Made by a program: the position numbers and the translations under genes
Shown: positions 1 to 16,478 of the stretch, piece by piece
Layout: each line of letters opens with the position of its first letter
Numbering within the stretch: the stretch's first letter is position 1
The notes under the pieces: generated by a model
What the model saw: only the letters and a program-made list of their open reading frames with translations
The model's database searches: none
Told to the model about the DNA's origin: nothing
Assembly: GCA_002840095.1 (NCBI GenBank)
Contig: PGZL01000015.1
Span: 25,757 to 74,876, forward strand
Length of the DNA stretch: 49,120 nucleotides
DNA from: Gammaproteobacteria bacterium HGW-Gammaproteobacteria-1
Lineage (GTDB): Bacteria; Pseudomonadota; Gammaproteobacteria; Thiohalomonadales; Thiohalomonadaceae
Direction: 5' to 3'

Positions 1-98
1 CGAAACTCGAAACTCGAAACTCGAAACTCGAAACTCGAAACTCGAAACTCGAAACTCGAAACTCGAAACTCGAAACTCGAAACTCGAAACTCGAAACT
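1..98. repeat. CGAAACT heptamer array, 14 perfect units
   Basis: Fourteen uninterrupted copies of the 7-base unit CGAAACT run from the window edge to position 98, three bases past the stop codon of the minus-strand yciK gene. Read in yciK's sense the unit is AGTTTCG. The same unit forms two-armed arrays after hpnC and ubiG, so a CGAAACT-sense second arm probably lies beyond the left edge (inference). Because 7 and 3 share no factor, the array passes through every frame and has no stop on either strand. Confidence 0.97.
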
Positions 99-101
99 TT
101 C

Positions 102-842
102 CTATTGCGCGCTCGTCCGCTGTCCGTTGGTGCCACGGCTGTCCGGCCCCAGCAGGTAGAGGTAGACGGCCATGATTTCTTCCGGGCGTCGCAGGGTGTT
201 GGGATCCTCACCGGGGTACGCCTTGGCGCGCAGGGTGGTGCGTACCGCGCCCGGGTCGATGCTGTTGACGCGGATGGGGGTGTTGGTCTCCAGTTCGTCG
301 GCCCAGATTTCCATCATGTTCTCGCAGGCGGCCTTGGTGATGCCGTAGGCACCCCAGTAGGCGCGGCCCTTGCGGCCGACGCTGCTGCTGGTGAACAGCA
401 CCGAGGCATCCGTGGACTTCTTCAGCAGCGGCAGCACCGCGCGGGTGAGCAGGAAGGGGGCGTGCAGGTTCACCTGCATCAGCTTGGCCCATTGTTCCAG
501 GTCGTACTGCTCCAGCGGCGTCAGCGTGCCCAGCAGGGCGGCATTGTGCAGCAGGCCGTCCAGACGGCCGAATTCCTGTTCCAGCGTCACTGCCAGTTCT
601 TCGTAATCCTTGGGCGCCGCGCCTTCCAGGTTCATCGGGTAGATTGCGGGCTGCGGCGCGCCGCTCTGCTCGATGGCGTCGTACACCTTTTCCAGCTTAC
701 GGATGCTGCGGCCCAGCAGGACCACGGTGGCGCCGTGGGCGGCGAAGGATTTTGCCGCGGCGGCGCCGATGCCGTCGCTGGCGCCGGTGACCAGGATGAC
801 GCGGTCCTTGAGCAGATCGGGGGCGGGCTTGTAATTCTTCAT
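102..842 (-). CDS. yciK: YciK-family short-chain dehydrogenase/reductase
   Basis: A 246-residue SDR oxidoreductase, close to the usual YciK length of about 250. The N-terminal NAD(P)-binding motif TGASDGIG is at residues 19-26, the structural HNAA at 99-102, catalytic serines near 152-154 and the Tyr-x-x-x-Lys pair at Y166/K170. The ATG at 842 is chosen because AGAGGAA lies just upstream on the coding strand. The same frame stays open far upstream, but only because the frameshifted hpnE happens to be in that frame. The physiological substrate of YciK is not established. The position beyond ubiG and mupP echoes the ubiG-mupP-yciK order of Pseudomonas, here interrupted by hopanoid genes and rmuC. 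Confidence 0.93.
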   Translation of the reverse strand: MKNYKPAPDLLKDRVILVTGASDGIGAAAAKSFAAHGATVVLLGRSIRKLEKVYDAIEQSGAPQPAIYPMNLEGAAPKDYEELAVTLEQEFGRLDGLLHNAALLGTLTPLEQYDLEQWAKLMQVNLHAPFLLTRAVLPLLKKSTDASVLFTSSSVGRKGRAYWGAYGITKAACENMMEIWADELETNTPIRVNSIDPGAVRTTLRAKAYPGEDPNTLRRPEEIMAVYLYLLGPDSRGTNGQRTSAQ

Positions 843-886
843 CGTGGTTCCTCTCGGCGCGTACTCGCCCTTGCTTGGTTTCTGAT

Positions 887-2168
887 TCAGCGTAGCAGGT
901 TGATGATGCGGCGCGCGCATTGTACTCCACTGCGCACGGCTCCTTCGAGCGTCGCAGGGTAACCGGTGTCGGTGTAGTCGCCGGCCAGCCAGAGGCGGGG
1001 CAGTGCGGTGGCATTGCCGGGGCGCCGGGCATTTACGCCGACATCGCATAGAAAAGTGGCGCGCCGTTCCCGTACCACGCGCAGGGTTTGCACCGTCGGC
1101 CAGTGAGGGAAGTGTGCGGCGATTTCGCCGCCGATCCGTGCGCCGAGCTGCGCCGGATCGAGGTCCGCATGCGGACCGGGGCCGCTGAGCACCGCCGCCA
1201 TCAGGCCATGCTGGCCGCACAGGACGCCGCGGTCGATGAGCCACAGCCCCATCCCGGTGCTGAGGCCCAGCATGGCATGGCCGAGCGTGACCGCGGGTGG
1301 ATACGCCAGGTAGACCGTGGTGATGGGTGCGCTGCCCAGGGCCGCCAGCTGCCGGGCCAGCGGCGCGAGCTGCGGGTGGGCGGCGCCATGGTGCCGTGGC
1401 GAGAACGACATGACTGGCGGGTTGCAGTCCGTCCCGGGTCACCACGCCGAACGTCGCGTCGGTGCATGCGAGGGAACGGACCCGGGCGCGGACCGTGACT
1501 TTGCCGCCGTGCCGTTCGATATGGCGGCGCGCCGGCTCCGGCAGGAGGCGACCGAGGTCGGTGCGCGGGTGGATCAGGTCGGCATCGCGGCGCCGCCGCG
1601 CGAATGCATCGCGCAGCACGCGCAGAAACACTTGGGCCGAGGCCTGGGCCGGAGGCGTGTTGAGGGTGGCCAGGCACAGGGGCTCCCACAGGGCGCGCAC
1701 CAGTGCGGCAGGCTGATCGGCCAGCAGGACGGCCACGCTGATGTCGGGCGCTATGGCAAAGCGCTGCCGCCAGGCGCGCAGGCAGAAGCGCAGCGCCGCC
1801 CGGCGCTCGCCCGGCCGCAGCCCGGCGGCACGCCACAGCGCCCACGCCAGGTGCAGTGGCGCGGGGAGGGGCGGGGCGCTGAGTTGCAACAGCGCGTCGT
1901 CCCGTTGCACGGCAAGCTGCAGGGTGTCGCGTTGCAACAGCTCCGGCTCCGCACCCAACCGCGCCATCAGGCGCAGGGTTTCCCGGTAGGCGCCTATCAA
2001 CAGGTGCTGGCCGTTGTCGACGGTGAGTCCGTCCAGCGCGACGCTGCGGGCGCGCCCGCCCAGCTGCGGGGCGGATTCCAGCACCTGCACCGGTACGCCG
2101 GCGGCGGCCAGTTCCGCCGCGGCGGCCAGGCCGGCCCAGCCGCCGCCCACGACGACGACGGGGTTCAT
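887..2168 (-). pseudogene. hpnE: Hydroxysqualene dehydroxylase HpnE, broken by a frameshift
   Basis: HpnE is an FAD-dependent amine-oxidase-fold enzyme that converts hydroxysqualene to squalene, the last of the HpnC/D/E steps. The N-terminal part (from ATG 2168) carries the FAD dinucleotide motif GGGWAG and reads through residue ~259, ending in VVLATAP. The C-terminal part, beginning at HHGAAHPQL and ending at 887, is in another frame and includes the family's C-terminal WLAGDYTDTGYPATLEGA stretch. The switch lies at about 1390, at a CACC|ATGG site where one added C would restore a ~426-residue protein of normal length. The start overlaps the hpnD stop by four bases (ATGA). It is either a real one-base deletion or a sequencing/assembly error; nothing else is degraded. 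Confidence 0.85.
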
Positions 2169-3022
2169 CCGGCCTTGCGCTGCCGCCGTGCCTCGCCGCG
2201 TGCCGTGCGCCAGGCGATCCACAGCTTGCGCCAGGGTGACAGCCGCACGCGCCGCTCCAGCACCGGGTAGTCCTGCTGTTCGATGGCGTCGAGGGTGGAG
2301 AGATAAATGGCGGCCATGATCAGGCCGCTGCGCTGGCTGTAGCGATCCACGATGGGCAGCTGGGCGAAGGCCTTGTCGTAGTAGGTGCGGGCGCGCTGGG
2401 CCTGGCAGCGCAGCAGTTCGCGCATGCCGTCGGACATGCGCCGCGCCAGCACGTCCTCGGCGCTGACGCCGAAGCGTGCCATTTCGTCGGCGGGAAGATA
2501 GATGCGGCCACGCGCCGCGTCCTCGCCCACGTCGCGCAGAATATTGGTGAGCTGGAAGGCCATGCCGAGATCGTGGGCATATTTCAACGTGTGGCGGTCT
2601 TCGTAGCCGAAGATGGTGGCGGCCATCAGGCCGACCACGCTGGCGACACGATAGCAGTACAGCGACAGATCCTTGAACGAGGCATAGCGGGTCTGGGTCA
2701 AGTCCATCGCCATGCCGTCGATGATTTCCGCGAAATACTCCTGCGGCAGGTCGTAGCGCGCGACGGCGGCCTGCAACGCCTGCGTTACCGGGTGCTGCGG
2801 AGTACCGGCGTAGAGGCGCGCAATTTCGCCGCGCCACCAGTCCAGCTTGGCCTGGGCCACCACCGGCTCGGTGCAGTCGTCCACCACGTCGTCGACCTCG
2901 CGACAAAAGGCATACAGCGCCATGATGGCGCGGCGCTGCTCTGTCGGCAGGAACAGAAAGCTGTAATAAAAACTCGAACCGCTGCGGGCGGTTTTGTTCT
3001 CGCAGTATTGGTCGGGGGTCAT
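2165..3022 (-). CDS. hpnD: Presqualene diphosphate synthase HpnD
   Basis: A 285-residue squalene/phytoene synthase-family protein that joins two farnesyl diphosphates into presqualene diphosphate. The two Asp-rich Mg-diphosphate motifs are visible: EVDDVVDD at residues 42-49 and RDVGED at 163-168, followed by RGRIYLP. The start at 3022 (MTPDQYC) is preferred. An upstream ATG at 3121 would add 33 residues read through the CGAAACT repeat and the hpnC end, giving an SFEFRV / RNSKLET-like sequence that is clearly repeat-derived. hpnE follows with an ATGA overlap, implying translational coupling. HpnC, HpnD and HpnE together replace the single-enzyme squalene synthase. Confidence 0.95.
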   Translation of the reverse strand: MTPDQYCENKTARSGSSFYYSFLFLPTEQRRAIMALYAFCREVDDVVDDCTEPVVAQAKLDWWRGEIARLYAGTPQHPVTQALQAAVARYDLPQEYFAEIIDGMAMDLTQTRYASFKDLSLYCYRVASVVGLMAATIFGYEDRHTLKYAHDLGMAFQLTNILRDVGEDAARGRIYLPADEMARFGVSAEDVLARRMSDGMRELLRCQAQRARTYYDKAFAQLPIVDRYSQRSGLIMAAIYLSTLDAIEQQDYPVLERRVRLSPWRKLWIAWRTARGEARRQRKAG

Positions 3023-3028
3023 ATTCTC

Positions 3029-3094
3029 AGTTTCGAGTTTCGAGTTTCGAGTTTCGGGTCGGATTTCGAAACTACAAACCCGAAACTCGAAACT
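3029..3094. repeat. Two-armed CGAAACT heptamer array between hpnC and hpnD
   Basis: Four AGTTTCG units (3029-3056) face four CGAAACT-type units (3067-3094: CGAAACT, ACAAACC, CGAAACT, CGAAACT) across a 10-base spacer, so transcripts could fold into a ~28-bp hairpin. The right end is five bases from the hpnC stop codon at 3100-3102, and the left end is six bases from the hpnD start. It therefore also supplies the hpnD 5' leader and may hide or expose its ribosome binding site (inference). Confidence 0.95.
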
Positions 3095-3099
3095 GTGTT

Positions 3100-3984
3100 T
3101 TAGTCGAACACGCTGCGCCACAGTATCACGGGCCAGTCGCGCCGGCGCAGGCGCGGCCGTGAAAACGGCGCCGTGTCCAGATTTGCTTCCAGCCGCTCCA
3201 ATACCCGCAGTCCCGCCGTGACAATGAGACGTATCTCCCAGCCGAAGCGGCCGCGCAGGCGCCGCCCCAGCGGTGCGCCTGCTTGCATCAAATCGCGGCT
3301 GCGGCGGTATTGCAGGCGCAGCAGTCCCCGCAGTGCTTCATCGTTACGGCGATCACGGAAATGGTCCGGGCCGATGCCGTACTGTTCCATTTCGTCGCCG
3401 GGGATATAGATGCGGCCGGTTTCATCATAGTCCTGGAGCAGATCCTGGTGGAAATTGATCAGCTGCAGGGCGGTGCAAACGTGATCGGACAGCAGCAGGT
3501 TTTCCCCGCTGGCCGCGCCGTTCAGATGCAGCAGCAGGTGGCCCACGGGATTGGCGGAGCGGCGGCAATAGTCGAGCAGTTCGGCGGCATCGGCGTAGCG
3601 TTGCCGGGTTACGTCCTGACGGAAGGCGGAGAGCAGGTCGTGGAACAGTTGCAGCGGCAAGCGGTGCCGGGCGATGACGTCGGCCAGGGCGATGAACACG
3701 GGATCGCCGCTGGGCCGGCCGAGTGCCAGGGCATCGAGTTCGCCGGCGTAGCCGTCGAGCAGGGTCAGCCGTTGTGCGGCAGTCCGCTCGCACTCGTCGG
3801 CAAAGTCGTCGGCACTGCGGGCAAAGGCGTAGATGACGGCGATGGGACGGCGCAGCCGGGCCGGCAGCAGGCGCGAGGCCACCGGGAAGTTTTCGTAATG
3901 GTTGCGCGCCAGCTGTTCACAATAGGCATAGGCCTGTGCCAGGGTGTACGCTGTTGCGCCGGCTGTGATAGCGTCAGCCGGCAT
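3100..3984 (-). CDS. hpnC: Hydroxysqualene synthase HpnC
   Basis: A 294-residue squalene/phytoene synthase-family protein. HpnC converts presqualene diphosphate to hydroxysqualene between HpnD and HpnE. Key features are the family opening HYENFPVASRLLP at residues 29-41, first Asp motif SADDFADE (57-64), and second Asp-rich motif QDLLQDYDETGRIYIP (about 180-195). It is the first gene of the minus-strand hpnC-hpnD-hpnE-yciK run and is separated from hpnD by a heptamer array. The ATG at 3984 lacks a convincing Shine-Dalgarno sequence, so the true start could differ slightly. The next gene upstream diverges only 26 bases away. Confidence 0.93.
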   Translation of the reverse strand: MPADAITAGATAYTLAQAYAYCEQLARNHYENFPVASRLLPARLRRPIAVIYAFARSADDFADECERTAAQRLTLLDGYAGELDALALGRPSGDPVFIALADVIARHRLPLQLFHDLLSAFRQDVTRQRYADAAELLDYCRRSANPVGHLLLHLNGAASGENLLLSDHVCTALQLINFHQDLLQDYDETGRIYIPGDEMEQYGIGPDHFRDRRNDEALRGLLRLQYRRSRDLMQAGAPLGRRLRGRFGWEIRLIVTAGLRVLERLEANLDTAPFSRPRLRRRDWPVILWRSVFD

Positions 3985-4010
3985 AGACCAATGAATGACG
4001 GAGTAGGGAC

Positions 4011-4199
4011 ATGAAAAAGCTGTTGTTTCTGATCATCGTCGTGTTGCTGGCCGGCGTCTGGTTCGGCATCAATATCGCCCGCGACAAGCCCTTGCTGAGC
4101 AATCCATTCGAGGAGAAGAGCCTGCGCGACAAGGCGAAGGACACGGCCAAGGATCTGTACCAGGAATCCAAGGAAGCGATCAAGAAGTCGCTGGACTGA
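4011..4199 (+). CDS. Small single-pass membrane protein, function unknown
   Basis: A 62-residue protein with a hydrophobic N-terminal helix (residues 4-20) that could be a membrane anchor or uncleaved signal, followed by a charged segment rich in Lys, Asp and Glu (residues 36-62) likely to be helical and soluble. GGAGTAGGG lies just upstream of the ATG. It diverges from hpnC with a 26-base gap and converges on rmuC with only three bases between stop codons, so it is probably its own transcription unit whose promoter lies inside hpnC. I do not recognise a family. A role in the envelope beside hopanoid genes would be speculation. Confidence 0.75.
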   Translation: MKKLLFLIIVVLLAGVWFGINIARDKPLLSNPFEEKSLRDKAKDTAKDLYQESKEAIKKSLD

Positions 4200-4202
4200 G
4201 CC

Positions 4203-5474
4203 TCAGGGCTTGTCTTCATCGGCGGTCACGTCGCGGGCCGCCACCTCGATCTGCGCTACCTCGGACAGCTCCTTCTTGGCGCTGATCCCCATTTCATTGA
4301 AGCGGCGCATGCTGGGCAGTACCCGGGTGTCGAAGGTGCCCACGGTCTTGTTGAAGTGGCCGACGCTGCTTTCCAGGCTCTTGCCCAGGCGGCCGAGGTG
4401 CTCGGTGAACGTGGCGACGCGGCCGTACAGCTCTTCCCCCAGCTTGCGGATCTGTTCTGCGTTTTCCGCCAGGGCCTGCTGGCGCCAGCCGTAGGCGACG
4501 GCACGCAGCAGGGCGATGAAACTGGTGGGGGTGGCCAGGATCACCTTGTCGCTCAGGGCATCTTCCAGCAGCTTGCGGTCCAGCTCCAGGGCGGCGGAGA
4601 GGAACTGCTCGCCCGGGATGAACAGCACCACGAAGTCCGGCGTGTTCTTGAACTGCTGCCAGTAGGCCTTGGCGGACAGTTCACGCACCCGCTCGCGCAC
4701 CTTGCGCGCGTGACGCTCCAGCTCCTTGCGTCGCGTCTCGTCGTCGCCGGCCTCGATGGCGCTCAGATAGGCATCCAGCGGCGTCTTGGCGTCGACGATG
4801 ATGTCGCGGCCGTCGGGCATGCGCACAATCATGTCGGGGCGCAGGTTGCCGTCCTCGGTGCGTACCTGCTCCTGTTCGAAAAAGTCGCAGTGCTCCACCA
4901 TGCCGGCCAGCTCGGCCAGTCGCTTTAGGGTCATTTCGCCCCATTGGCCGCGCACTTCCGGGCGCCGCAGCGCCTGCACCAGATTGCGCGTCTCGCCCTG
5001 CAGCATGCGGTGGGCCTCGGCCATGGACTCCAGGTGCTTGGTCAGAGAGCCGTAGGCTTCGGCGCGGCTCTTCTCCACCTCCTGGATCTGCTTTTCGGTC
5101 TTCTCCAGCGCCTCGCGGATGGGTTTTACCAGGTTCTCCACCGCCTTTTCCCGCTGCGCCAGCTCGCCCTGCGCCTGGACGTGGAACTGCTTGAGGTTTT
5201 CCTGCGCCAGGCGCAGGAACTCGCCGCTGTTGTGCTTGAGGGCCTCGCTGGCCATGGTGCTGAAGGTGCCGGCCAGGTTTTCGCGCACCTGCTCCAGGGC
5301 GAGGCTCTTCTCGATGGCGGAGCGGCGCTCGCCGTCCAGTTCCGCCTGCAGGCGCGCATTGTCCTCACGCAGCAGGATGACGCGACGCTGGAGCAGGAAG
5401 TAGGTGATGGCGGCGCTGAGCAGGGCGGCCAGCAGCGTCGCCAGGATGAGCAGCAGCAGGTAGGTTTCCGTCAT
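4203..5474 (-). CDS. rmuC: DNA recombination protein RmuC
   Basis: A 423-residue RmuC. The layout is typical: an N-terminal membrane helix (residues 4-28), a long coiled coil (about 30-180) and a C-terminal nuclease-like domain with MPDGRDIIVDAKTPLDAYL, the conserved Asp/Lys segment of the family, followed by FVVLFIPGEQFLSAALE. RmuC limits inversions between short inverted repeats, which is notable given the inverted-repeat arrays nearby, though no link is shown. It lies 59 bases downstream of mupP on the same strand. Confidence 0.95.
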   Translation of the reverse strand: MTETYLLLLILATLLAALLSAAITYFLLQRRVILLREDNARLQAELDGERRSAIEKSLALEQVRENLAGTFSTMASEALKHNSGEFLRLAQENLKQFHVQAQGELAQREKAVENLVKPIREALEKTEKQIQEVEKSRAEAYGSLTKHLESMAEAHRMLQGETRNLVQALRRPEVRGQWGEMTLKRLAELAGMVEHCDFFEQEQVRTEDGNLRPDMIVRMPDGRDIIVDAKTPLDAYLSAIEAGDDETRRKELERHARKVRERVRELSAKAYWQQFKNTPDFVVLFIPGEQFLSAALELDRKLLEDALSDKVILATPTSFIALLRAVAYGWRQQALAENAEQIRKLGEELYGRVATFTEHLGRLGKSLESSVGHFNKTVGTFDTRVLPSMRRFNEMGISAKKELSEVAQIEVAARDVTADEDKP

Positions 5475-5533
5475 GGACTGTCCTTGGCGCCGTTGGGGTA
5501 GGCGGGGAGTTTATCACGCCCCCGGCGGGCGGC

Positions 5534-6199
5534 TCAGGCGATGCGGCGGTCGAGCCAGTGCAGCAGGTCCAGCGGAGCGTTCACCTCGCCGTCGGCGCCC
5601 CAATCGGCGGGGTGGTCCTCGCTGCCGATATAACCGTACAGGGCGACCAGCGTGGCCATGCCGGCGTTGCGCCCGGCGGCGATGTCACGCTCGGCGTCGC
5701 CCAGATAGAGGCATTCCGCCGCGGCGCTGCCTGCCTCGTTGCAGGCGAGCAGCATGGGGGCCGGGTGGGGTTTGCGCTCGGGCAGGGTGTCGCCGCTGAC
5801 GACGGTGACGGCGCGGTCGACGAGGCCCAGGCCGGCCATCAGCGGATCGGTGAGCCAGGCCGGCTTGTTGGTGACCACGCCCCAGTTGAGCCCGCGTGCC
5901 TCGATGTCGGCCAGCAGCTCCGCCATGCCCGGAAACAGGCGGGTGCCGCGGGTGATGTTGCTGCGGTAGATGTCGAGAAAGAAGTCGCGCAGGCGATCGA
6001 ATTCCCCCTGCGGCAATTCCGTGCCGAAGGCCAGCTGCAACAGCGCCGTGCCGCCGTGGGACACCACCGGACGGATGACGTCGAAGGGCAGCGGGGCGCG
6101 CCCGGCATGCTCCAGTGTGCGGTTGAGGGCATAGGCGAGATCCGGCGCGGTATCGGCCAGGGTACCGTCGAGGTCGAACAGTATGGTGCGGAGGGGCAT
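5534..6199 (-). CDS. mupP: HAD phosphatase, MupP-type (MurNAc-6-phosphate phosphatase)
   Basis: A 221-residue HAD-IA hydrolase with all four motifs: nucleophile FDLDGT (D9, D11), TN at 110-111, K143 and GDAERD at 167-172. General annotation would call it phosphoglycolate phosphatase. The C-terminal YGYIGSEDHPADWGAD closely resembles the corresponding stretch of Pseudomonas MupP as I recall it, and the ubiG-adjacent position matches. MupP removes phosphate from N-acetylmuramate 6-phosphate in the cytosolic peptidoglycan recycling route that feeds AmgK/MurU. Those partners are not in this window, so Gph remains the alternative. The gap to ubiG contains a heptamer array. Confidence 0.85.
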   Translation of the reverse strand: MPLRTILFDLDGTLADTAPDLAYALNRTLEHAGRAPLPFDVIRPVVSHGGTALLQLAFGTELPQGEFDRLRDFFLDIYRSNITRGTRLFPGMAELLADIEARGLNWGVVTNKPAWLTDPLMAGLGLVDRAVTVVSGDTLPERKPHPAPMLLACNEAGSAAAECLYLGDAERDIAAGRNAGMATLVALYGYIGSEDHPADWGADGEVNAPLDLLHWLDRRIA

Positions 6200-6206
6200 T
6201 AAAATC

Positions 6207-6291
6207 AGTTTCGAGTTTCGAGTTTCGAGTTTCGAGTTTCGGACAGCTCCGGATTGCGGGTTTCGAAACCCGAAACCCGCAACTCGAAACT
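6207..6291. repeat. Two-armed CGAAACT heptamer array between ubiG and mupP
   Basis: Five AGTTTCG units (6207-6241) and four CGAAACT-type units (6264-6291: CGAAACC, CGAAACC, CGCAACT, CGAAACT) flank a 22-base spacer. The right arm runs into the ubiG stop codon (6290-6292), so the last two bases of the array are part of that stop. The left end is eight bases from the mupP start. Arm order relative to the upstream gene is the same as after hpnC. Confidence 0.95.
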
Positions 6292-6997
6292 ATTCCTTTA
6301 TGCAGTGCGCCATGTAGTTCACGTCCAGATCCCGTCCCAGGGAGTAGCTGCGCGTGAGCGGGTTGTAGCTCATCCCGGTGAGCTCCTTCAGCACCAGGCC
6401 GCCCTGGCGGATGCCCTGTTCCAGTTCCGACGGGCGGATGAACTTGGCGAAATCGTGGGTGCCGCGCGGCAGCAGCCGCAGCAGGTATTCGGCACCGACG
6501 ATGGCGAACAGCCAGGCCTTGGGATTGCGGTTGATGGTGGAGAGAAACACATGGCCGCCCGGCTTGACCAGCCGGGCGCAGGCGGCGATGACTGAAGCCG
6601 GGTCCGGCACGTGTTCCAGCATCTCCATGCAGGTGACCACGTCGAAGCTGCCCGGCATTTCCGTCGCCAGCTGTTCGGCGGTGGTGCGGCGATAGGTCAC
6701 CTCCACGCCGGACTCCAGCTTGTGCAGCTGCGCCACTTCCAGCGGGGCCTCACCCATGTCGATGCCGGTGACATGGGCGCCGCGTGCCGCCATGCTCTCG
6801 GCCAGGATGCCGCCGCCGCAGCCCACGTCCAGCACGGTCTTGCCGGCCAGGGCGGCGCGCTGATCGATGTAGTCCAGGCGCAGGGGATTGATGTCGTGCA
6901 GCGGCTTGAACTCGCTGTCCGGATCCCACCAGCGCGAGGCCAGGGCCTCGAATTTTCCGACTTCGGCGTGGTCGACGTTGTGCGTCGTGCCGCTCAT
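6290..6997 (-). CDS. ubiG: Ubiquinone biosynthesis O-methyltransferase UbiG
   Basis: A 235-residue class I SAM-dependent methyltransferase that performs both O-methylations in ubiquinone synthesis. The SAM-binding VLDVGCGGG is at residues 55-63, the family opening [19 protein letters not shown] at 16-34, and the post-motif [10 protein letters not shown] is typical of UbiG. Its ATG overlaps the mtaD stop by four bases (ATGA) and its Shine-Dalgarno AAGGAG lies inside the last codons of mtaD, so translation is probably coupled. mupP follows after a repeat array. Confidence 0.97.
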
Positions 6998-8334
6998 GGC
7001 TGCTCCTTAATATGTTCGTCTTTGTTGTGAATCTTTTCGCGCCAGTGGCACGCGCGGGCCAGGGCCGCGTCCATGTCCAGCGTGGTGAGTTCGCGCCCCT
7101 TGAGCAGATGGCGGCCCGCCACCCAGACATCGGTGACCTTGTCCCGGCTGACCGAATAGACCAGCTTGGACAGCGGGTGGTAGAGCGGTTGGGTTTCCAC
7201 GTCACCGAGATATACGGCGGCGATGTCGGCCTGCTTGCCGACGTTGAGTGAGCCGGTTTCCCTGTCCAGGCCGAGGGCGCGCGCGCCGCCCAGCGTGGCC
7301 ATGTACAGGGCGCTGGCGGCGGGAATGGCGCTGGCATCGCCGGCGACTCCTTTGGCCAGGAGGGCTGCGGTGCGCATTTCACCGATTATATCCAGGTCGT
7401 TGTTGCTGGCGGCGCCGTCGGTGCCAAGCGCCACGTTGATCCCGGCCTGATGCAGCTTGTATACCGGGCAAAAGCCGCTGGCCAGCTTGAGGTTCGATTC
7501 CGGGCAATGGACGACGTGCAGGCCGGATTCGGCGCAGCGCTCGATTTCGGCGTCGTTGAGCTGGGTCATGTGTACCGCCAGCAGGCGCGGCGAGAGCAGG
7601 CCCAGGCTGTCGAGGCGGGCCAGGGGGCGCTGGCCGCTGGAGGCCAGCGCCTGGTTCACCTCGTCTGCGGTTTCGTGGACGTGCATGTGGATGGGCACGT
7701 CCAGCTCTTCGGCGTACATGGCCACCTTTTCCAGTGCGGCGTTACCCACCGTATAGGGCGCGTGCGGCGCGAAGGCGGTACTGATCAGGGGATGGCTGTG
7801 GTACCGGTCGTGCAGCTGGATGCCCTTGCGCAGATATTCGTCGGCATCCTGCGCCCAGGCGGAAGGGAAGTCGATGACGATGAGCCCCACCGTTGCGCGC
7901 ATCCCCACCTGCGCCGCACAGCGGGCGGTGACATCGGGGTAGAAATACATATCGTTGAAGCAGGTAACGCCGCCACGCAGCATCTCGGCCATGGCCAGCT
8001 GGGTGCCGTCGTGGACGAACTCCTCGCTGACCCAGCGTGCCTCGGTGGGCCAGATGTGATCGTTGAGCCAGCGCATCAGCGGCAGGTCATCGGCCAGGCC
8101 GCGCATCAGGTTCATGGCGGCGTGGGTGTGGGCGTTGATGAGGCCCGGAATCAGGGCGTGGTCCGGCAACTCCAGCTCGGTTTCGGCGCGGTAGCGGAGG
8201 CGGGCCTCGCTGCTGGGCAGCAGGGCCAGGATACGGCCATCGGAAATGGCGATGCTGTGGTGCTCCAGCACCACGTTGTCCGGTTCGACCGGGATGATCC
8301 AGCGGGCGTGGAGTAGGGTGTCGACGCTTTGCAT
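6994..8334 (-). CDS. mtaD: 5-methylthioadenosine/S-adenosylhomocysteine deaminase
   Basis: A 446-residue TRZ/ATZ-type amidohydrolase. Metal ligands are seen as NAHTH (H69, H71), MHVHE (H218) and [10 protein letters not shown] (D306), as in MTA/SAH deaminases. It deaminates methylthioadenosine to methylthioinosine, entering the salvage route in which MtnA acts later. The start at 8334 (MQSVDTLL) is preferred over an upstream GTG-type extension that has a low-complexity Pro/Ala stretch. There is no clear Shine-Dalgarno sequence, and a candidate promoter sits so close that the mRNA may be nearly leaderless. It leads the mtaD-ubiG-mupP operon. Confidence 0.92.
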
Positions 8335-8340
8335 GGGCGA

Positions 8341-8369
8341 AAGATACAGGGCGGGACAGGGGCTTACAA
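8341..8369 (-). promoter_or_regulatory. Candidate mtaD promoter
   Basis: On the minus strand TTGTAA (8364-8369) and TATCTT (8341-8346) are 17 bases apart. The -10 ends seven bases before the mtaD ATG, so transcription would begin at or next to the start codon. Both hexamers are imperfect, so this is a tentative call. Confidence 0.3.
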
Positions 8370-8444
8370 GCGGAGTGGCAGGGGGCGTGAGCGCGGGTGC
8401 CGCCTGCCGCCGGCGGACCACGCCGGTCCAAATCCCCCTGAATT

Positions 8445-8460
8445 TGTGAGCGTGTTCACG
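8445..8460. promoter_or_regulatory. CRP-like palindrome upstream of the DUF1631 gene
   Basis: TGTGA (8445-8449), six bases, then TCACG (8456-8460) matches the CRP/Vfr consensus TGTGA-N6-TCACA at nine of ten positions. It sits in the 221-base divergent interval between mtaD and the DUF1631 gene, about 95 bases before the latter's start. Apart from this and the mtaD promoter candidate the interval shows only GC-rich short hairpins. Confidence 0.35.
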
Positions 8461-8555
8461 CCAAAACTGTCTTCTGCGTCACGGTCAGGCGCGCATGGCT
8501 GCTCAATACTGTTCACTAGTAAGGATTCATGGGTTTATCGGTCCAGAGGTGCAAA

Positions 8556-10982
8556 ATGAGCAATCCATTGAACGTGCTCCCCTTCAATGCCCGCACCGAA
8601 ACGACAGGAGCCAAGGGACTAGCCCTGCCGGAATTGGTGCGTACCGCAAAACACCGTGCCGAGAAGCAGCTGGAACCGCTGCTGGCGGGGCTGTTCAACA
8701 AAATCGATGACGCATTGTTCGAACTCGCCGACAAGGCGGACAACAACACCCTGCAAAGCCAGTATTTCGATGCCATGCGCGAGATCCGGCTGCGCAAGGA
8801 AGTGATGCTGAGCAAGCTGGCGGCGCGCCATCACAAGGAGTTCATGGACACCCTGCAGAGCGGCAAGGCGCCTTCGGTCGAACCGGTGACGCTGGAGCTG
8901 GCCCTGATCAATGACGATGAACTGGAGGAGTCCATCGCCATCCGCAACATGATAGACAAGGCGACGGAACTCTACGCCGATCCCTTGTACTGCCTGTCCC
9001 AGCGGCTCGATGTCCTGATGCCGGCGCTGGGTGTCAGCGAATCCGACAATCCCTTTGGCCCCGCCGTGTTGTGCGAGGCGTTCCGCACCGCCGTCAACAC
9101 CCTGGAGCTGGAGCTCAAGGTCAAGCTGATCGTCTTCAAGCTGTTCGACAAGTTCGTCATCCAGCATCTCGGCCCGGTGTACGACGCCGCCAATACGGTG
9201 CTGGCCCGCGGCGGCGCCCTGCCGCAGCTGAAGGGGCGGCCGCAGCCGTCCACCATCGTCCAGGTTCCCGGCCGGCATGGGGCTGCGGCGGGGCGCGGCA
9301 TGGCAGACCACGGCACCGACAGGCGGCAATCGGATGGCGGCTATCCTACGGCCCTGCCCCCGGAACTGCTGGCCCAGCAGATGGAGACGTTCGAGCTGTT
9401 GCAGCAGTTGCTGGCGGCGCAGCGTGGCGGTACGGCCGCGGGTTACGGCACTGCGCCCCAGGCTGCGGCGGCGGCGCCGGTGGCGGCCGCATCCTTCAGC
9501 GCCGACGAAATGCTGGCCACCCTGTCGTCATTGCAGCAGCATGTCGTTGCCATGGATGCCCCGGCCGATGCCGCTCCCCTCAACCTGCGTACACAACTGC
9601 TCCTGCACATCGGTGACCAGAGCGGCAGCGCCGACCGCGAGATCAGCCAGACCCATGCCGACGTCATCGACGTCGTGGGCATGATGTTCGACTTCATTCT
9701 CGATGATCCCGAATTGCCTGACGCCATCAAAGGGTTGATTGCGCGCCTGCAGATTCCGATGTTGAAGGTGGCGCTGCTGGACCGCGAATTTTTCGGCAAG
9801 AAGAGCCACCCGGCCCGCCTGCTGCTCAACGAGCTGGCGCACGCCGGCATCGGTCTCGACGAGTCGGTCGTGCTGGTGGAAACCCCCATCTTCGGCAAGA
9901 TCGAGCACGTGGTGGGGCGCATACTGCAGGAATTCGAGGACGAGCTGTCGATCTTCGGCGAACTGTTGCAGGAACTGTATGAGTTCCAGGAACTGGAGCG
10001 GCAGCAACTGGAACAGATGCAGGAGAGCCTGGAACGCTCGCGCGTGACCGCTGCGGAGGCCATCGAGCCGCTGCTGGAATCCCGGATCATGCCGGAAGCC
10101 TTGCGTGCCCTGCTGGCAGGGGCGTGGAAGGAGCACCTAGCCAGCATCTATCTGGATGTCGGCGGCATGTGCGAGGCATGGGAGCATGCGGCAAAGCTGG
10201 CATCCCGGCTGGTATGGAGCATACAGGCCAAGGGTTCGGCGGAGGAGCGTACCGCGCTGGTGCGGGAGATTCCGTCCCTGCTTACGGACCTGAAAAAATT
10301 CACGGTGGTGACTGAATTGCCGGCGGAAGAAGGTGAGCGCTTTTTCCTGGACCTGGAGGCGCTGCACCTTGATTGCCTGCGGCAGAAAGACAGTGCCGGT
10401 GCGGGAACTGCACCCAAGGCCCGACCCAGCCCGGTCGTCCCCCTGTCGATTGCCGCACAGGAGCGTCCGGCCGGCAACGGCAGGATATTCACCGCCGATG
10501 AGTTGGACGCCATGCTGCACGATCTGCCCCTGCCCGGGGCTGCAGCCGAAGGCCCGCACGGTGCGCAGCCGGCGGCCGCGGCAGACTCGGTGTTCGACGA
10601 GGAAATCGTTCTCGCGGACGAGGAGGAGACGAGCGGCGAGGATGCGCGTTGGGGGATGGAATTCATGGGGCATGCTGCCATGGTGCGCGAACTGGAGGTC
10701 GGCGCATGGCTGGGATTCATGCAGGAGGACGGCAGCGTCCGCCGCGGCAAGCTGGCCTGGAAGAGCGACCTGATGGGGGAGTACGTCTTCGTCGATCGTT
10801 TCTTCAAGGTGGTGCGCGACACCAATCTGCGGCAGCTGGTGACCGACCTGGCAGTAGGCCAGGCCCTGCTGGTGGAGGAAGTGCCACTCATGGATCGGGC
10901 CCTGGACTCCGTGATGGGAGCGTTAAAAAGGTACCGGGAGAAGGTGGCCGGTCAGGCGGACGTCACCGGACCGGCGTCCTGA
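8556..10982 (+). CDS. DUF1631 family protein
   Basis: An 808-residue protein of the DUF1631 family, recognised by the C-terminal region with ELEVGAWLGF, KLAWKSDLMGEYVFVDR and the closing PLMDRALDSVMGALKRY. The middle (about residues 250-310) is Ala/Gln-rich and probably a flexible linker; the regions around it are predicted helical. There are no membrane segments. The C-terminal pattern resembles PilZ-like beta barrels, but the canonical RxxxR / DxSxxG residues are not obvious, so c-di-GMP binding is only a guess. The ATG at 8556 follows AGAGGTG; a second in-frame ATG at 8529 with AAGGA is the alternative. It stands alone between divergent mtaD and the remnant before mtnA. Confidence 0.85.
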   Translation: MSNPLNVLPFNARTETTGAKGLALPELVRTAKHRAEKQLEPLLAGLFNKIDDALFELADKADNNTLQSQYFDAMREIRLRKEVMLSKLAARHHKEFMDTLQSGKAPSVEPVTLELALINDDELEESIAIRNMIDKATELYADPLYCLSQRLDVLMPALGVSESDNPFGPAVLCEAFRTAVNTLELELKVKLIVFKLFDKFVIQHLGPVYDAANTVLARGGALPQLKGRPQPSTIVQVPGRHGAAAGRGMADHGTDRRQSDGGYPTALPPELLAQQMETFELLQQLLAAQRGGTAAGYGTAPQAAAAAPVAAASFSADEMLATLSSLQQHVVAMDAPADAAPLNLRTQLLLHIGDQSGSADREISQTHADVIDVVGMMFDFILDDPELPDAIKGLIARLQIPMLKVALLDREFFGKKSHPARLLLNELAHAGIGLDESVVLVETPIFGKIEHVVGRILQEFEDELSIFGELLQELYEFQELERQQLEQMQESLERSRVTAAEAIEPLLESRIMPEALRALLAGAWKEHLASIYLDVGGMCEAWEHAAKLASRLVWSIQAKGSAEERTALVREIPSLLTDLKKFTVVTELPAEEGERFFLDLEALHLDCLRQKDSAGAGTAPKARPSPVVPLSIAAQERPAGNGRIFTADELDAMLHDLPLPGAAAEGPHGAQPAAAADSVFDEEIVLADEEETSGEDARWGMEFMGHAAMVRELEVGAWLGFMQEDGSVRRGKLAWKSDLMGEYVFVDRFFKVVRDTNLRQLVTDLAVGQALLVEEVPLMDRALDSVMGALKRYREKVAGQADVTGPAS

Positions 10983-10996
10983 TGCCGGTTGCCACA

Positions 10997-11022
10997 TAAA
11001 AAGGGGCGCATGCATGCGCCCC
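10997..11022 (-). terminator. Intrinsic terminator reading on the minus strand
   Basis: A perfect 20-base palindrome at 11003-11022 is preceded on the plus strand by ATAAAAA. Read on the minus strand this is a GC-rich hairpin followed by TTTTTAT, a textbook terminator. On the plus strand the hairpin is followed by TTGCAAA, a poor tail for ending the DUF1631 transcript. It implies a minus-strand transcription unit to its right, where only a decayed remnant remains. Confidence 0.6.
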
Positions 11023-11032
11023 TTGCAAACCA

Positions 11033-11275
11033 TCAAGAGAGAACGGCGTCCCTGCCGGTCGAACCTCCCTGGAACTTGAACTCCATACCGGCCGGACTCA
11101 CCTCCGACGCCAGCTTTTCGTCCGTTGCAGTACCGTTGTTGCCGGAGCAGGACAGGGTGATCGTCACGTCTGTTCAACCCGGCTGGTGCGGGCGCCGGTC
11201 AGCACGACGTTCGGACCGGCCGGGACCTCACCGGCTTCCGCCAGCTACGGTTCTGCCTGGACCGGTTGAAGCTGT
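11033..11275 (-). pseudogene. Probable decayed remnant of a minus-strand gene
   Basis: The 344-base interval between the DUF1631 gene and mtnA has no intact gene, but its minus strand holds protein-like fragments. One reads DVTITLSCSGNNGTATDEK..., contains a MEFKFQGG stretch and ends DAVLS at a TGA (11033-11035), just before the minus-strand terminator. Upstream, in another frame, lies LAEAGEVPAGPNVVLTGA between in-frame stops. The beta-rich, Cys-containing style suggests an exported or surface protein end. I do not recognise a family, and a chance open stretch cannot be excluded. Confidence 0.35.
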
Positions 11276-11326
11276 TGGGGGCGGTGAAATGAGTTAGGAT
11301 CGGGCGCTCATCAGATCCGGCGAGCG

Positions 11327-12388
11327 ATGCACACCATGACCCAGACCCACGATTCCATCCGCGCCGTACTGTGGCAGGACGGCCGGCTACAACTGCTCGA
11401 TCAGCGCATCCTGCCGCAGCAGCAAACCTATCTTTCCTATGACGACCCGATTGCCGTGGCGCAGGCCATCCGCGACATGGTGGTGCGTGGCGCGCCCGCC
11501 ATCGGCGTGACCGCCGCCTATGGCGTCGTGCTGGCGGCGCGCAGGCGTTTCCGCGCGGCGGGGGCGGCATGGCGTGAGCATATAAAGGAAGACATGGCGC
11601 GCCTTGCGGCGGCCCGGCCCACGGCGGTGAACCTGTTCTGGGCGCTGGAGCGGATGGAATCCCGCATGGCGGGGCTGGGTTCGGACGATCCGGAGCCGGC
11701 CCTGCTGGCCGAGGCCCGTGCCATTCACGAGGAGGACATCGCCGCCAATTACCGCATGGGCGAACTGGGCGCGGCCCTGATCGAGGGGGAGGGTGGTGCG
11801 GTGCTGACCCACTGCAATACCGGGTCGCTCGCCACCGGCGGTTACGGCACCGCCCTGGGGGTGATACGCAGCGCCTTTGCCGCCGGGCGCATCAGCCATG
11901 TCTATGCCGACGAGACCCGCCCCTGGCTGCAGGGTGCCCGGCTCACCGCCTGGGAGCTGGTGCAGGACCATATCCCGGTGACCCTGCTGGCGGATGGTGC
12001 CGCCGCCCACCTCATGAAACTGGGCAAGGTCAGCTGGGTGATCGTCGGTTCCGACCGCATCGCCGCCAACGGTGACGTGGCCAACAAAATCGGCACCTAC
12101 AGCGCAGCCGTCAATGCCCGTTACCACGGGGTGAAGTTCATGGTGGTGGCCCCGGCCTCCACGGTGGACATGTCCCTGGCCAACGGCGACTTGATTCCCA
12201 TCGAGAGCCGCTCTGCCGATGAGGTCCTGTCCCTGGCCGGGCAACGGGTGGCCGCCCAGGGGGCGGAGGGCTGGAACCCCGCCTTCGACGTCACACCCGC
12301 CGGGCTGATAGACGCCATCGTCACCGAGCGGGGCGTCGTCCTGAATCCGACCCCCGAAAAAATGGCGGCGATGATGAAAAACGGCTGA
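11327..12388 (+). CDS. mtnA: S-methyl-5-thioribose-1-phosphate isomerase MtnA
   Basis: A 353-residue eIF2B-like sugar isomerase that converts methylthioribose-1-phosphate to methylthioribulose-1-phosphate in methionine salvage. Family signatures are VVRGAPAIG at residues 52-60, the catalytic Cys in [15 protein letters not shown] (C163) and the catalytic Asp in [10 protein letters not shown] (D243). The length matches the bacterial norm. An in-frame ATG three codons later is an alternative start. It belongs functionally with mtaD, from which it is separated by the DUF1631 gene and a decayed region, and it precedes gyrA as in Pseudomonas. Confidence 0.95.
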
Positions 12389-12413
12389 CGGCCGCCGGGT
12401 CAAAGCCGTCAGC
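12384..12413 (+). other. Hairpin spanning the mtnA stop codon
   Basis: GCTGACGGC (12384-12392) pairs perfectly with GCCGTCAGC (12405-12413) across 12 bases. The stop codon TGA at 12386-12388 lies inside the stem. There is no T-tract, so it may serve as a 3'-end stabilising or rho-associated structure rather than an intrinsic terminator. Confidence 0.4.
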
Positions 12414-12467
12414 GCCCCGGAAATCGGCTGTGAGCGTGTTTTGGGCCCATGCGCTGGGGGAGGGTTA

Positions 12468-12476
12468 TGGTATGAT
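12468..12476 (+). promoter_or_regulatory. Candidate extended -10 promoter of gyrA
   Basis: TGGTATGAT (12468-12476) is an extended -10 element (TG-N-TATGAT) with no good -35 at the right distance, as expected for this promoter class. Transcription from about 12483 would leave a leader of about 150 bases before the gyrA ATG. The remainder of 12389-12635 shows the mtnA hairpin and no other clear signal. Confidence 0.45.
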
Positions 12477-12635
12477 CCGGGCGTTTAACACGCGCCTGGG
12501 ACGAGGATGCTGCCGCAGTAGGCCGGACGACGCCCTGTCGTAACCATAAAGGCCTTTTTAATCAGCGGTTTGTGACTTTCGTTCCGATGCAGCCATATCC
12601 CCGGCGCCCTGGGGTTGAAAGGATACGATTTCCCG

Positions 12636-15218
<2,583 letters not shown>

Positions 15219-15302
15219 ACAGTTACTGGTTTTCCTCTGTATGCCCTGTGGCCTCTGTGGCAAAGGGTTTGGTCTTGTTGACTTAACGTTGGGGGATTGA
15301 TG

Positions 15303-16388
15303 ATGGCGCGGGTATTCAATTTCAGTGCAGGGCCGGCGATGTTGCCGCAGGCAGTAATCGAGCGGGCGCGTGACGAAATGCTCGATTGGAACGGCAGCGG
15401 CATGTCGGTGATGGAGATGAGCCATCGCGGCAAGGAGTACATGTCCATCGCCGCCAAGGCCGAGGCCGACCTGCGTGAGTTGATGAATATTCCCGCCAAT
15501 TATAAGGTCCTGTTCCTGCAGGGCGGCGCCTCGCAACAGTTCGCCATGCTGCCCATGAACCTGTTGGGCGACAAGAAGGGCGCCGACTACATCAATACCG
15601 GCGACTGGTCGAAGAAGGCCATCTCCGAGGCGAAGAAGTTTTGCGCGGTGAACATCGCCGCCGACACCTCGGCCGGCAACTTCACCACGGTGCCGGCGCA
15701 GGGGGAAATCAAGCTGTCGGCCGACGCCGCCTACGTCCACTACTGCCCCAACGAAACCATCCGCGGCGTGGAGTTCGACTACATACCGCAGACCGGCGCC
15801 GTGCCGCTGGTGGCCGACATGAGTTCCACCATCCTGTCGCGCCCCGTCGATGTGAGCAAATTCGGCGTGATCTATGCCGGCGCGCAGAAGAATGTCGGTC
15901 CGGCGGGCCTGACCATCGTCATCATCCGCGACGACCTCATCGGCAAGGCAGGGGCCGGCGTGCCCACCATGCTGGACTACAAGACCCATGCCGAGAACGA
16001 ATCCATGTACAACACGCCGGCGACCTATTCCTGGTACGTGGCGGGCCTGGTGTTCGAGTGGCTCAAGGACCTTGGTGGCCTCGCGGGCATGGCTGCCATC
16101 AACCAGCGCAAGGCGGCCAAGCTGTATGCCGCCATCGACGGTTCGGGCGGCTTCTACAAGAACCCGGTCGCCACCCATTGCCGCTCCTGGATGAACGTGC
16201 CCTTTACCCTGCCCAGGGAAGAACTGGATGAAATCTTCCTCAAGGAAGCCAAGAAGGCGGGTTTGGTGACTCTGAAAGGCCACCGCTCCGTCGGCGGCAT
16301 GCGCGCCAGTATCTACAATGCGATGCCGGAACAGGGCATCGATACGCTGGTGGAGTTCATGGCCGACTTCGCCCGTCGGAACGGTTAA
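15303..16388 (+). CDS. serC: Phosphoserine aminotransferase SerC
   Basis: A 361-residue class V aminotransferase, one residue shorter than E. coli SerC. It makes 3-phosphoserine from 3-phosphohydroxypyruvate and also serves pyridoxal phosphate synthesis. FNFSAGPAMLP at the N-terminus and the PLP lysine in YAGAQKNVGPAG (K196) identify the family. Three tandem potential starts (TTG, ATG, ATG) follow GGGGGA; the last, giving MARVFNF, has the best spacing. It lies downstream of gyrA after the 9-base array and upstream of serA, completing two steps of serine synthesis. Confidence 0.97.
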   Translation: MARVFNFSAGPAMLPQAVIERARDEMLDWNGSGMSVMEMSHRGKEYMSIAAKAEADLRELMNIPANYKVLFLQGGASQQFAMLPMNLLGDKKGADYINTGDWSKKAISEAKKFCAVNIAADTSAGNFTTVPAQGEIKLSADAAYVHYCPNETIRGVEFDYIPQTGAVPLVADMSSTILSRPVDVSKFGVIYAGAQKNVGPAGLTIVIIRDDLIGKAGAGVPTMLDYKTHAENESMYNTPATYSWYVAGLVFEWLKDLGGLAGMAAINQRKAAKLYAAIDGSGGFYKNPVATHCRSWMNVPFTLPREELDEIFLKEAKKAGLVTLKGHRSVGGMRASIYNAMPEQGIDTLVEFMADFARRNG

Positions 16389-16395
16389 GGGCAGT

Positions 16396-16467
16396 TACAA
16401 GATACAAGTGACAAGATACAAGTTGGAGGCGGGTTTTCCCTTGTATCTTTGCTCTTTACTCTTTTAT
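16396..16467. repeat. Two-armed TACAAGA/T heptamer array between serC and serA
   Basis: Four 7-base units TACAAGA, TACAAGT, GACAAGA, TACAAGT (16396-16423) face four degenerate 7-base units CTTGTAT, CTTTGCT, CTTTACT, CTTTTAT (16440-16467). The first arm begins seven bases after the serC stop, and the second ends just before the CTGGGGG that serves serA. The layout is the same as in the CGAAACT arrays although the sequence is unrelated. Confidence 0.85.
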
Positions 16468-16478
16468 CTGGGGGTCGC

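Follow-up and report, generated by a model that had tools for sequence, protein, structure and literature searches.

The 49,120-nt stretch analysed here (the window) comes from Gammaproteobacteria bacterium HGW-Gammaproteobacteria-1 (assembly GCA_002840095.1, contig PGZL01000015.1, positions 25,757 to 74,876 of the forward strand), and carries three tandem arrays of the heptamer CGAAACT, each at the 3' end of a gene (Table 1). The arrays belong to an inverted-repeat element that recurs throughout the genome, with an arm of AGTTTCG units, a loop and an arm of CGAAACT units lying behind a stop codon. The window contains 31 copies of CGAAACT where 3.0 are expected; none of 100 shuffles reached 31, and 27 of the copies lie within arrays. 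A preliminary description made from the sequence alone had placed the arrays correctly, and its distances from the upstream stop codons (3 nt, 5 nt and a 2-nt overlap) agree with ours. Its unit counts hold for the 14, 4 and 5 exact units of the pure arms, but the partner arms of the second and third elements are partly degenerate, with three of four and one of four units exact. The first array is cut by the window edge. On the contig (locus L208), 13 further units lie beyond an assembly gap (NN), with a terminator-like hairpin and a degenerate arm, so that the length of 14 units refers to the part inside the window and the remainder is interrupted by the gap. DNA uptake sequences or uptake signal sequences (DUS/USS) are single short words over-represented genome-wide, and this class was rejected because the four single units outside arrays compare with 3.0 expected for the window. 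Rfam searches of the window and four loci returned two tRNAs and nothing else.

Table 1. Heptamer elements of the window and the genes next to them (window coordinates).
Feature	Coordinates	Strand	Basis or remarks
Pure expanded CGAAACT arm, 14 exact units	1..98	+	Behind yciK-like gene; continues left of the window
Short-chain dehydrogenase (SDR) gene, yciK in the preliminary description	102..842	-	Pfam adh_short, ORF end; stop 3 nt from array (98 vs 102)
Squalene/phytoene synthase family gene, hpnD-like	2165..3022	-	Pfam SQS_PSY, gene call; start side of second element
Arm, four exact AGTTTCG units	3029..3056	.	Between hpnC-like and hpnD-like genes
Loop of second element, 10 nt	3057..3066	.	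Sequence
Arm CGAAACT-ACAAACC-CGAAACT-CGAAACT, 3/4 units exact	3067..3094	.	Second element
Squalene/phytoene synthase family gene, hpnC-like	3100..3984	-	Pfam SQS_PSY, ORF; stop 5 nt from arm (3094 vs 3100)
HAD-family hydrolase gene, gph-like	5534..6199	-	Pfam HAD_2; start side of third element
Pure arm, five exact AGTTTCG units	6207..6241	.	Third element
Loop of third element, 22 nt	6242..6263	.	Sequence
Degenerate arm CGAAACC-CGAAACC-CGCAACT-CGAAACT, 1/4 exact	6264..6291	.	Last two bases belong to ubiG stop codon TAG
Methyltransferase gene, ubiG-like	6290..6997	-	Pfam methyltransferase matches, genus orthologues; 2 nt overlap with arm (6291 vs 6290)
Sister element: TTACAAG-ATACAAG-TGACAAG-ATACAAG (16395-16422), loop (16423-16439), four units from CTTGTAT (16440-16467)	16395..16467	.	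6 nt behind class-V aminotransferase stop

The preliminary description had proposed a genome-wide search for the unit. In the source genome (4.23 Mb, 70 contigs) we found 357 exact two-unit matches and none to a reversed-pattern control, and the elements are dispersed over the genome, not local to the window. Through their array edges, 55 clusters were located in 44 stretches. Four more were added later, giving 59, and these four, two of which carry mixed heptamers, stand outside the statistics. In all, 348 of the 357 two-unit matches were viewed in context and nine were not. Gene calls come from a simple codon-usage model that had the same stretches as its training set, and the gap counts omit five clusters inside open reading frames (ORFs). 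The 55 clusters comprise 26 between tandem genes, 19 between convergent genes, 4 between divergent genes and 1 at a contig end; the other 5 fall inside a called ORF. Fifty thus lie outside called ORFs, and some of the five ORF calls look wrong by eye.

The elements share one plan: a stop codon, a few A-rich bases, the AGTTTCG arm, a loop, the CGAAACT arm, and then a convergent stop or the next start. The outward flanking bases are T-rich, and a minority of clusters are single-armed. Arms most often have four units, or 28 nt (42 of 102 arms, followed by three units in 17 and two units in 11), and in 22 of the 47 two-armed elements the shorter arm has four. Asymmetry is frequent, with one arm degenerate and its partner pure and expanded to as many as 27 units. 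Loops measure 20–23 nt in 20 of the 47 and exactly 22 nt in 13, of which 10 are copies of one core. Classified by eye, the loops of the 55 clusters include about 14 with the core AAAGGCCACGACACACTCTTGC and its relatives and 8 GC-rich hairpins with A and T runs, the rest being unrelated. The 22-nt core is found again at unrelated sites, and its 10 matches with up to two mismatches all lie inside elements. At three mismatches, two of six do so, and a backward control gave seven matches at up to three mismatches. The archetype is an element of about 78 nt lying directly behind a stop. Two arms of four heptamers each, inverted relative to one another, enclose a loop of about 22 nt and are bordered by A-rich and T-rich bases. 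Palindromes containing GTAGG are separate from the heptamer elements and sometimes sit inside their loops. Locus L193 (2938–4103) has a small gene with a nearly identical element on either side. Both elements contain heptamer arms, a GTAGG-type palindrome and the 22-nt core, as a recent duplication or gene conversion might leave them.

The preliminary description stated that the AGTTTCG arm always comes first on the strand of the upstream gene. The order does hold, but an in-facing inverted repeat reads the same on either strand, so the order alone says nothing about the gene. What it does record is that the arms face inwards: AGTTTCG comes first in all 20 source-genome elements with at least two exact units per arm, and the opposite arrangement was never seen.

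The placement of the elements is set by the stop codon. Where an arm faces a gene 3' end, it begins at -2 to +8 nt from the stop codon in 57 of 64 cases, against 8 of 28 equally close among arms facing a gene start. Placement relative to stop codons is thus not random, randomness being an outcome that the preliminary description had named as refuting it. Elements between tandem genes lie nearer to the stop than to the start in 25 of 26 cases, with medians of 3.5 and 23 nt (Wilcoxon, p = 8.7e-5), the gaps from arm to start ranging from -35 to 531 nt (the median of 23 being that of the tandem pairs). Counted by element, the nearest 3' end lies at -2 to +8 for 44 of 49, while only 4 of 17 GTAGG palindromes in the same stretches and the window lie at -4 to +8. 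The distances peak at -2 (18 arms) and +4 (11 arms). At -2, a T and the AG of the outermost unit together form a TAG stop codon. Where the gap is 3–8 nt (n = 29), its bases are 44% A (61/139), compared with 20% over the five bases that follow each of 194 other stops. Element 28 illustrates how an arm can take over as the stop. Its gene ends GGA-TAA-TCT-TAG in G003, one of four relatives of the same genus (G001 to G004), and reads GGA-CAA-TCT-TAG in the source genome, so that with CAA instead of TAA the source frame runs on to the TAG made by the array. Element 29 (L206, 2943–3042) is an apparent exception to the placement behind stops. By eye, one of its arms seems to be translated in frame near the start of an FAD-enzyme-like gene, within the N-terminus of the product, and ends in RNPKLET before the Rossmann motif.

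The expectation that inverted arms would give strong hairpins was borne out in silico. We folded 43 two-armed elements, leaving out those with N or longer than 330 nt, and all 86 strand folds had z < -2 against mononucleotide shuffles. Mutual pairing of the arms covers half or more of the shorter arm in 42 of the 43.

The same inverted-arm plan is followed by a second heptamer family, nnACAAG, of which one copy lies in the window, at 16395–16467, behind an aminotransferase gene (Pfam Aminotran_5) that we take to be serC-like. Three units in a row occur 129 times in the source genome and 104, 81, 100 and 1 times in the four relatives, with no match to the control. Twenty nnACAAG loci were examined, including two pairs that represent one element each, and 21 of the 23 arms directed at gene 3' ends lie at -15 to +14 nt. 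The two families bear on a further claim of the preliminary description, namely that a unit without stop codons in any frame could invade gene ends without truncating them. CGAAACT is indeed stop-free, but so are 50% of all heptamers on both strands. As a device for invading genes, stop-freeness does not survive: it is common by chance, it is missing from the sister unit ACAAGTG, which contains TGA, and the elements lie mostly behind stops. Units can also change. One orthologous site has CGAAACT arms in the source genome, an inverted CTTGAAT array in G003 and no arms in G001, and the two arms of the element at L357 differ, one being built of AGTTTCG and the other of TTGAACC. The G003 contigs C6, C20, C23, C32, C37 and C39 end within ACAAGTG arrays, so nnACAAG arrays interrupt the assembly and explain some of its breaks. 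Inverted repeats with a 9-base period (CGCAAAGAC-like and CACAGAG-like) were seen beside nnACAAG elements at L350 and L327. Another 9-base-periodic inverted element (CACAGAGGA-like) lies in the window at 15175–15261 and spans the stop codon of a gyrA-like gene (15216–15218), its left arm being read in frame, by eye, as the acidic C-terminus of the product.

The remaining genes around the window elements can be named tentatively. The two SQS_PSY genes are presumably hpnC and hpnD, and the HAD_2 gene is presumably gph. Adjoining hpnD on the minus strand is an FAD-oxidoreductase-like gene (887–2168), which we take to be hpnE-like. It appears to be split by a frameshift at about 1370–1410, where the conserved-looking frame switches, through either an assembly error or a pseudogene.

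Within the genus, the elements are gained, lost, resized and remodelled, and are not strictly conserved. Three CGAAACT units in a row occur in three of the four same-genus genomes (1, 34 and 53 matches), in none of 15 other family members and in none of 19 others of the class. Of 397 other genomes of the phylum sample, three hold such a run, compared with two for the backward pattern, so the idea that this exact heptamer is special outside the genus finds no support. Amplification in this sequence form is limited to the genus. Comparison of orthologous intergenic regions, another proposal of the preliminary description, showed that arms between hpnC and hpnD are present only in the source genome: G001, G003 and G004 are without them, and the G002 contig falls short of the site. 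At the yciK end there is a GTAGG palindrome in G003 and a degenerate element with a core-like loop in G001, and none was recognised in G004. All five genomes have TAG-TTTCG or TAG-TTGCG at the ubiG end. Pure arms differ in length between sister species at the same sites (4 versus 8 and 6 versus 8 units). Array length differences, which the preliminary description had allowed might match assembly errors, are therefore not merely such errors, yet three source-genome arrays do contain N gaps. Apart from the ubiG region, the G003 stretches were selected for holding arrays, which biases the shared sites in G003, and the three window sites were compared free of that bias.

A scan of a collection of 85k genomes provided, among the matches listed, at least 114 further stretches, which serve as examples and not as counts. 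They contain at least 119 arrays of three or more exact units, at least 39 of them in ORFs of 100 aa or longer. Among the intergenic arrays in these matches, 21 of 40 that read AGTTTCG first away from a gene end lie within 15 nt of it, against 5 of 50 in the other orientation, and 5 of 28 facing a start are as close. The Fisher p-value for polarity is 1.4e-5, or 7.0e-5 without the three cases at -2, and both values are optimistic because gene calling there was crude and some genomes contributed several stretches. With up to two mismatches per unit, four units is the commonest length in the matches listed (31 of 116 chains), while counted in exact units 66 of 119 arrays have three, which is the search threshold. 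One Xanthomonas-like genome (G189, 1 of 369 in the class sample) has sense-strand GGGAATC arrays 1, 2 and 14 nt from gene ends.

We lean towards the view that the element is a dispersed extragenic hairpin, similar to repetitive extragenic palindromic (REP) sequences, that acts on mRNA 3' ends, and that it is not a GTAG-tagged REP of the kind associated with RAYT (REP-associated tyrosine transposase). The function is suggested by analogy with what is reported for REPs (PMC12306157, PMC3733652). In an mRNA, the folded element would form a 3'-end hairpin and protect the end of the upstream message or determine where it lies. Between convergent genes it may weakly terminate transcription from both sides, and it may affect translation at the stop codon, as described for Escherichia coli REPs within 15 nt of a stop. 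Replication slippage would lengthen the pure arm, with interruptions restraining the other arm, as suggested by the contrast between pure and interrupted arms and by the interspecies length differences. Whole elements would presumably spread by copying.

Several observations weigh against this reading. The ubiG element is the lone exception to mutual arm pairing on the plus strand, though its gene-strand fold does pair the arms. A genus-wide conserved hairpin was looked for at this site and not found: it is clear in two genomes, weak in one and absent in two, with z of -7.1 in the source genome, -6.2 in G002, -1.9 in G004, +1.0 in G001 and +0.4 in G003. Some elements sit in short operon gaps such as hpnC–hpnD, where a terminator would do harm. 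A terminator scan of window positions 1–17000 gave 11 sites against 10.7 expected, none at elements, with a loop limit of 3–8 nt that cannot see them. Expanded arms of 10–27 units go far beyond what a hairpin requires, and in the nnACAAG family the stop side is the nearer in only five of eight tandem cases. In Xanthomonas, transcript starts and stops are commoner at repeats capable of forming G-quadruplexes than at control repeats, which favours a G-quadruplex role there (PMC4692102).

One alternative is that these are plain heptamer microsatellites, which polymerase slippage makes and lengthens anywhere and which survive only between genes, with neither an element nor a function. Length variation in pure arms between species is what slippage would produce, as are the many elements with one long, pure arm and an interrupted partner, and the different heptamers in the two arms at L357. 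Heptamers have also been reported in excess among bacterial simple sequence repeats (PMC4692102). We nevertheless consider this explanation unlikely, since slippage alone fails to yield in-facing pairs in 20 of 20 elements, a four-unit mode, a recurrent loop core, or placement at -2 to +8 of stops over starts. A miniature transposon with no role in expression, moved by RAYT (a Y1 tyrosine transposase) or a similar transposase, would explain why the core and the degenerate arm are common to unrelated sites and why the hpnC–hpnD site is empty in sister species, and Y1_Tnp matches are present in all five genus genomes. However, only one of 19 Y1_Tnp loci (L267) has a two-unit heptamer cluster, most of them holding GTAGG/CCTAC words whose chance level was not compared, and RAYT/REPIN as the cognate pair of the heptamer elements is unsupported on the same count. 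The sites, moreover, are confined to stop codons, the loops are mostly unrelated in sequence, and no target duplication was established, the orthologous empty sites being too diverged to show one clearly and no systematic test having been made. We judge a transposon without a role in expression to be rather improbable. The RAYT-like Y1_Tnp genes at L267, L272, L275 and L277 lie amid many GTAGG/CCTAC words, as GTAG-tagged REPs predict, again without comparison to chance.

The arrays might instead be read by a protein, in DNA or RNA, for example by Rho, for which a pyrimidine-C step recurs every 7 nt, or by a repeat-binding regulator. The sense polarity kept at stops in foreign genomes, among the matches listed, would fit such a binding array. 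So would a sense motif, nnWCRRG, which was defined post hoc and matches 10 of the 17 other heptamer arrays close to gene ends (antisense, 1 of 17), though several of the 17 come from the families that suggested it and the motif is only a lead. Mutual pairing of the arms would hide the binding sites, however, one orthologous site has different units in different species, and we give a binding array little credence.

The REP-like hairpin proposed above could also be part of something wider. It is conceivable, but doubtful, that stop-anchored hairpins of 4 x 7 nt form a general bacterial class, in which the period of seven, about four units per arm, the sense polarity and the placement at stops are kept across phyla while the heptamer is free to change. 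If so, an activity at gene ends, on RNA or DNA, would measure seven-base steps or 28 nt and rewrite both arms together, and the differing heptamers at one orthologous site and the two-heptamer arms of L357 would be snapshots of this rewriting.

How do these elements compare with known systems? Bacterial intrinsic terminators, including the bidirectional ones between convergent genes, consist of a hairpin followed by a T-run. Between convergent stops, the heptamer elements share their layout (A-rich, stem, loop, stem, T-rich), and eight of 55 enclose a GC-rich hairpin with A and T runs, judged by eye. Unlike such terminators, they have a long, AT-richer and modular stem and bigger loops, and they are present in short operon gaps as well. 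REPs, including those of bacterial interspersed mosaic elements (BIMEs), are short extragenic hairpins, many of them behind stops, that are reported to supply TAG stop codons, to stall ribosomes within 15 nt of a stop in E. coli and to protect mRNA (PMC3733652, PMC12306157). The heptamer elements agree with them in being extragenic hairpins behind stop codons, with the TAG supplied by some of the elements. In contrast to GTAG-tagged REPs, the arms and flanks of the heptamer elements have no terminal GTAG and their stem is an expandable tandem of heptamers. The TAACTGA arrays of Beggiatoaceae are direct repeats (169 sets, one of them indirect) that lie mostly just upstream of start codons (MacGregor, 2015, PMC4679880). 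With them the elements share abundant intergenic heptamer arrays that are patchily distributed over distant phyla, but here the arms are inverted and at stops.

The closest relatives are the GGGAATC arrays of Xanthomonas. As reported by Rehm et al. (2015, PMC4692102), they are intergenic, have a clear four-unit preference and form 70 and 75 in-facing pairs in two genomes. They are strongly biased to stop codons or ORF overlap on the coding strand, with few between divergent genes, and their sites are mostly common to the species while lengths vary. The same study names GGGGA(C/T)T as the Nostoc heptameric repeat, ties the four-unit preference to the minimum for a G-quadruplex, and records that heptamers are over-represented among bacterial simple sequence repeats. 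Among the papers listed by our searches on heptameric or heptanucleotide repeats, REP elements and stop-codon repeats, none dealt with CGAAACT arrays, and the array letters matched one unrelated mosquito paper. The arrays described here are real, genome-wide and orderly, and they are a kind of object known from Xanthomonas and unexplained. Several features of the GGGAATC arrays are present here: tandem intergenic heptamers in many copies, a four-unit preference, in-facing pairs and closeness to stops. The differences from the Xanthomonas repeats are that the inverted pair is the rule and not a subset, that a loop core recurs, and that two families follow one plan in one genus. Unlike the G-rich Xanthomonas and Nostoc repeats, CGAAACT and nnACAAG lack any run of three G or C in the unit and cannot form a G-quadruplex, which therefore cannot be the sole cause of the four-unit design. 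The strongest new points, in our view, are that four-unit arms exist without G-runs, that two families in a single genus follow the same plan, and that polarity at stops is kept in foreign genomes, among the matches listed. The reported excess of heptamers among bacterial simple repeats has no accepted reason, and the four-unit preference in Xanthomonas was linked to G-quadruplexes. The same preference, inverted pairing and stop placement in units without that capacity point to the hairpin and the stop codon, and if this is true, the testable question is how ribosomes, RNA polymerase or exonucleases behave at 3' ends of this kind.

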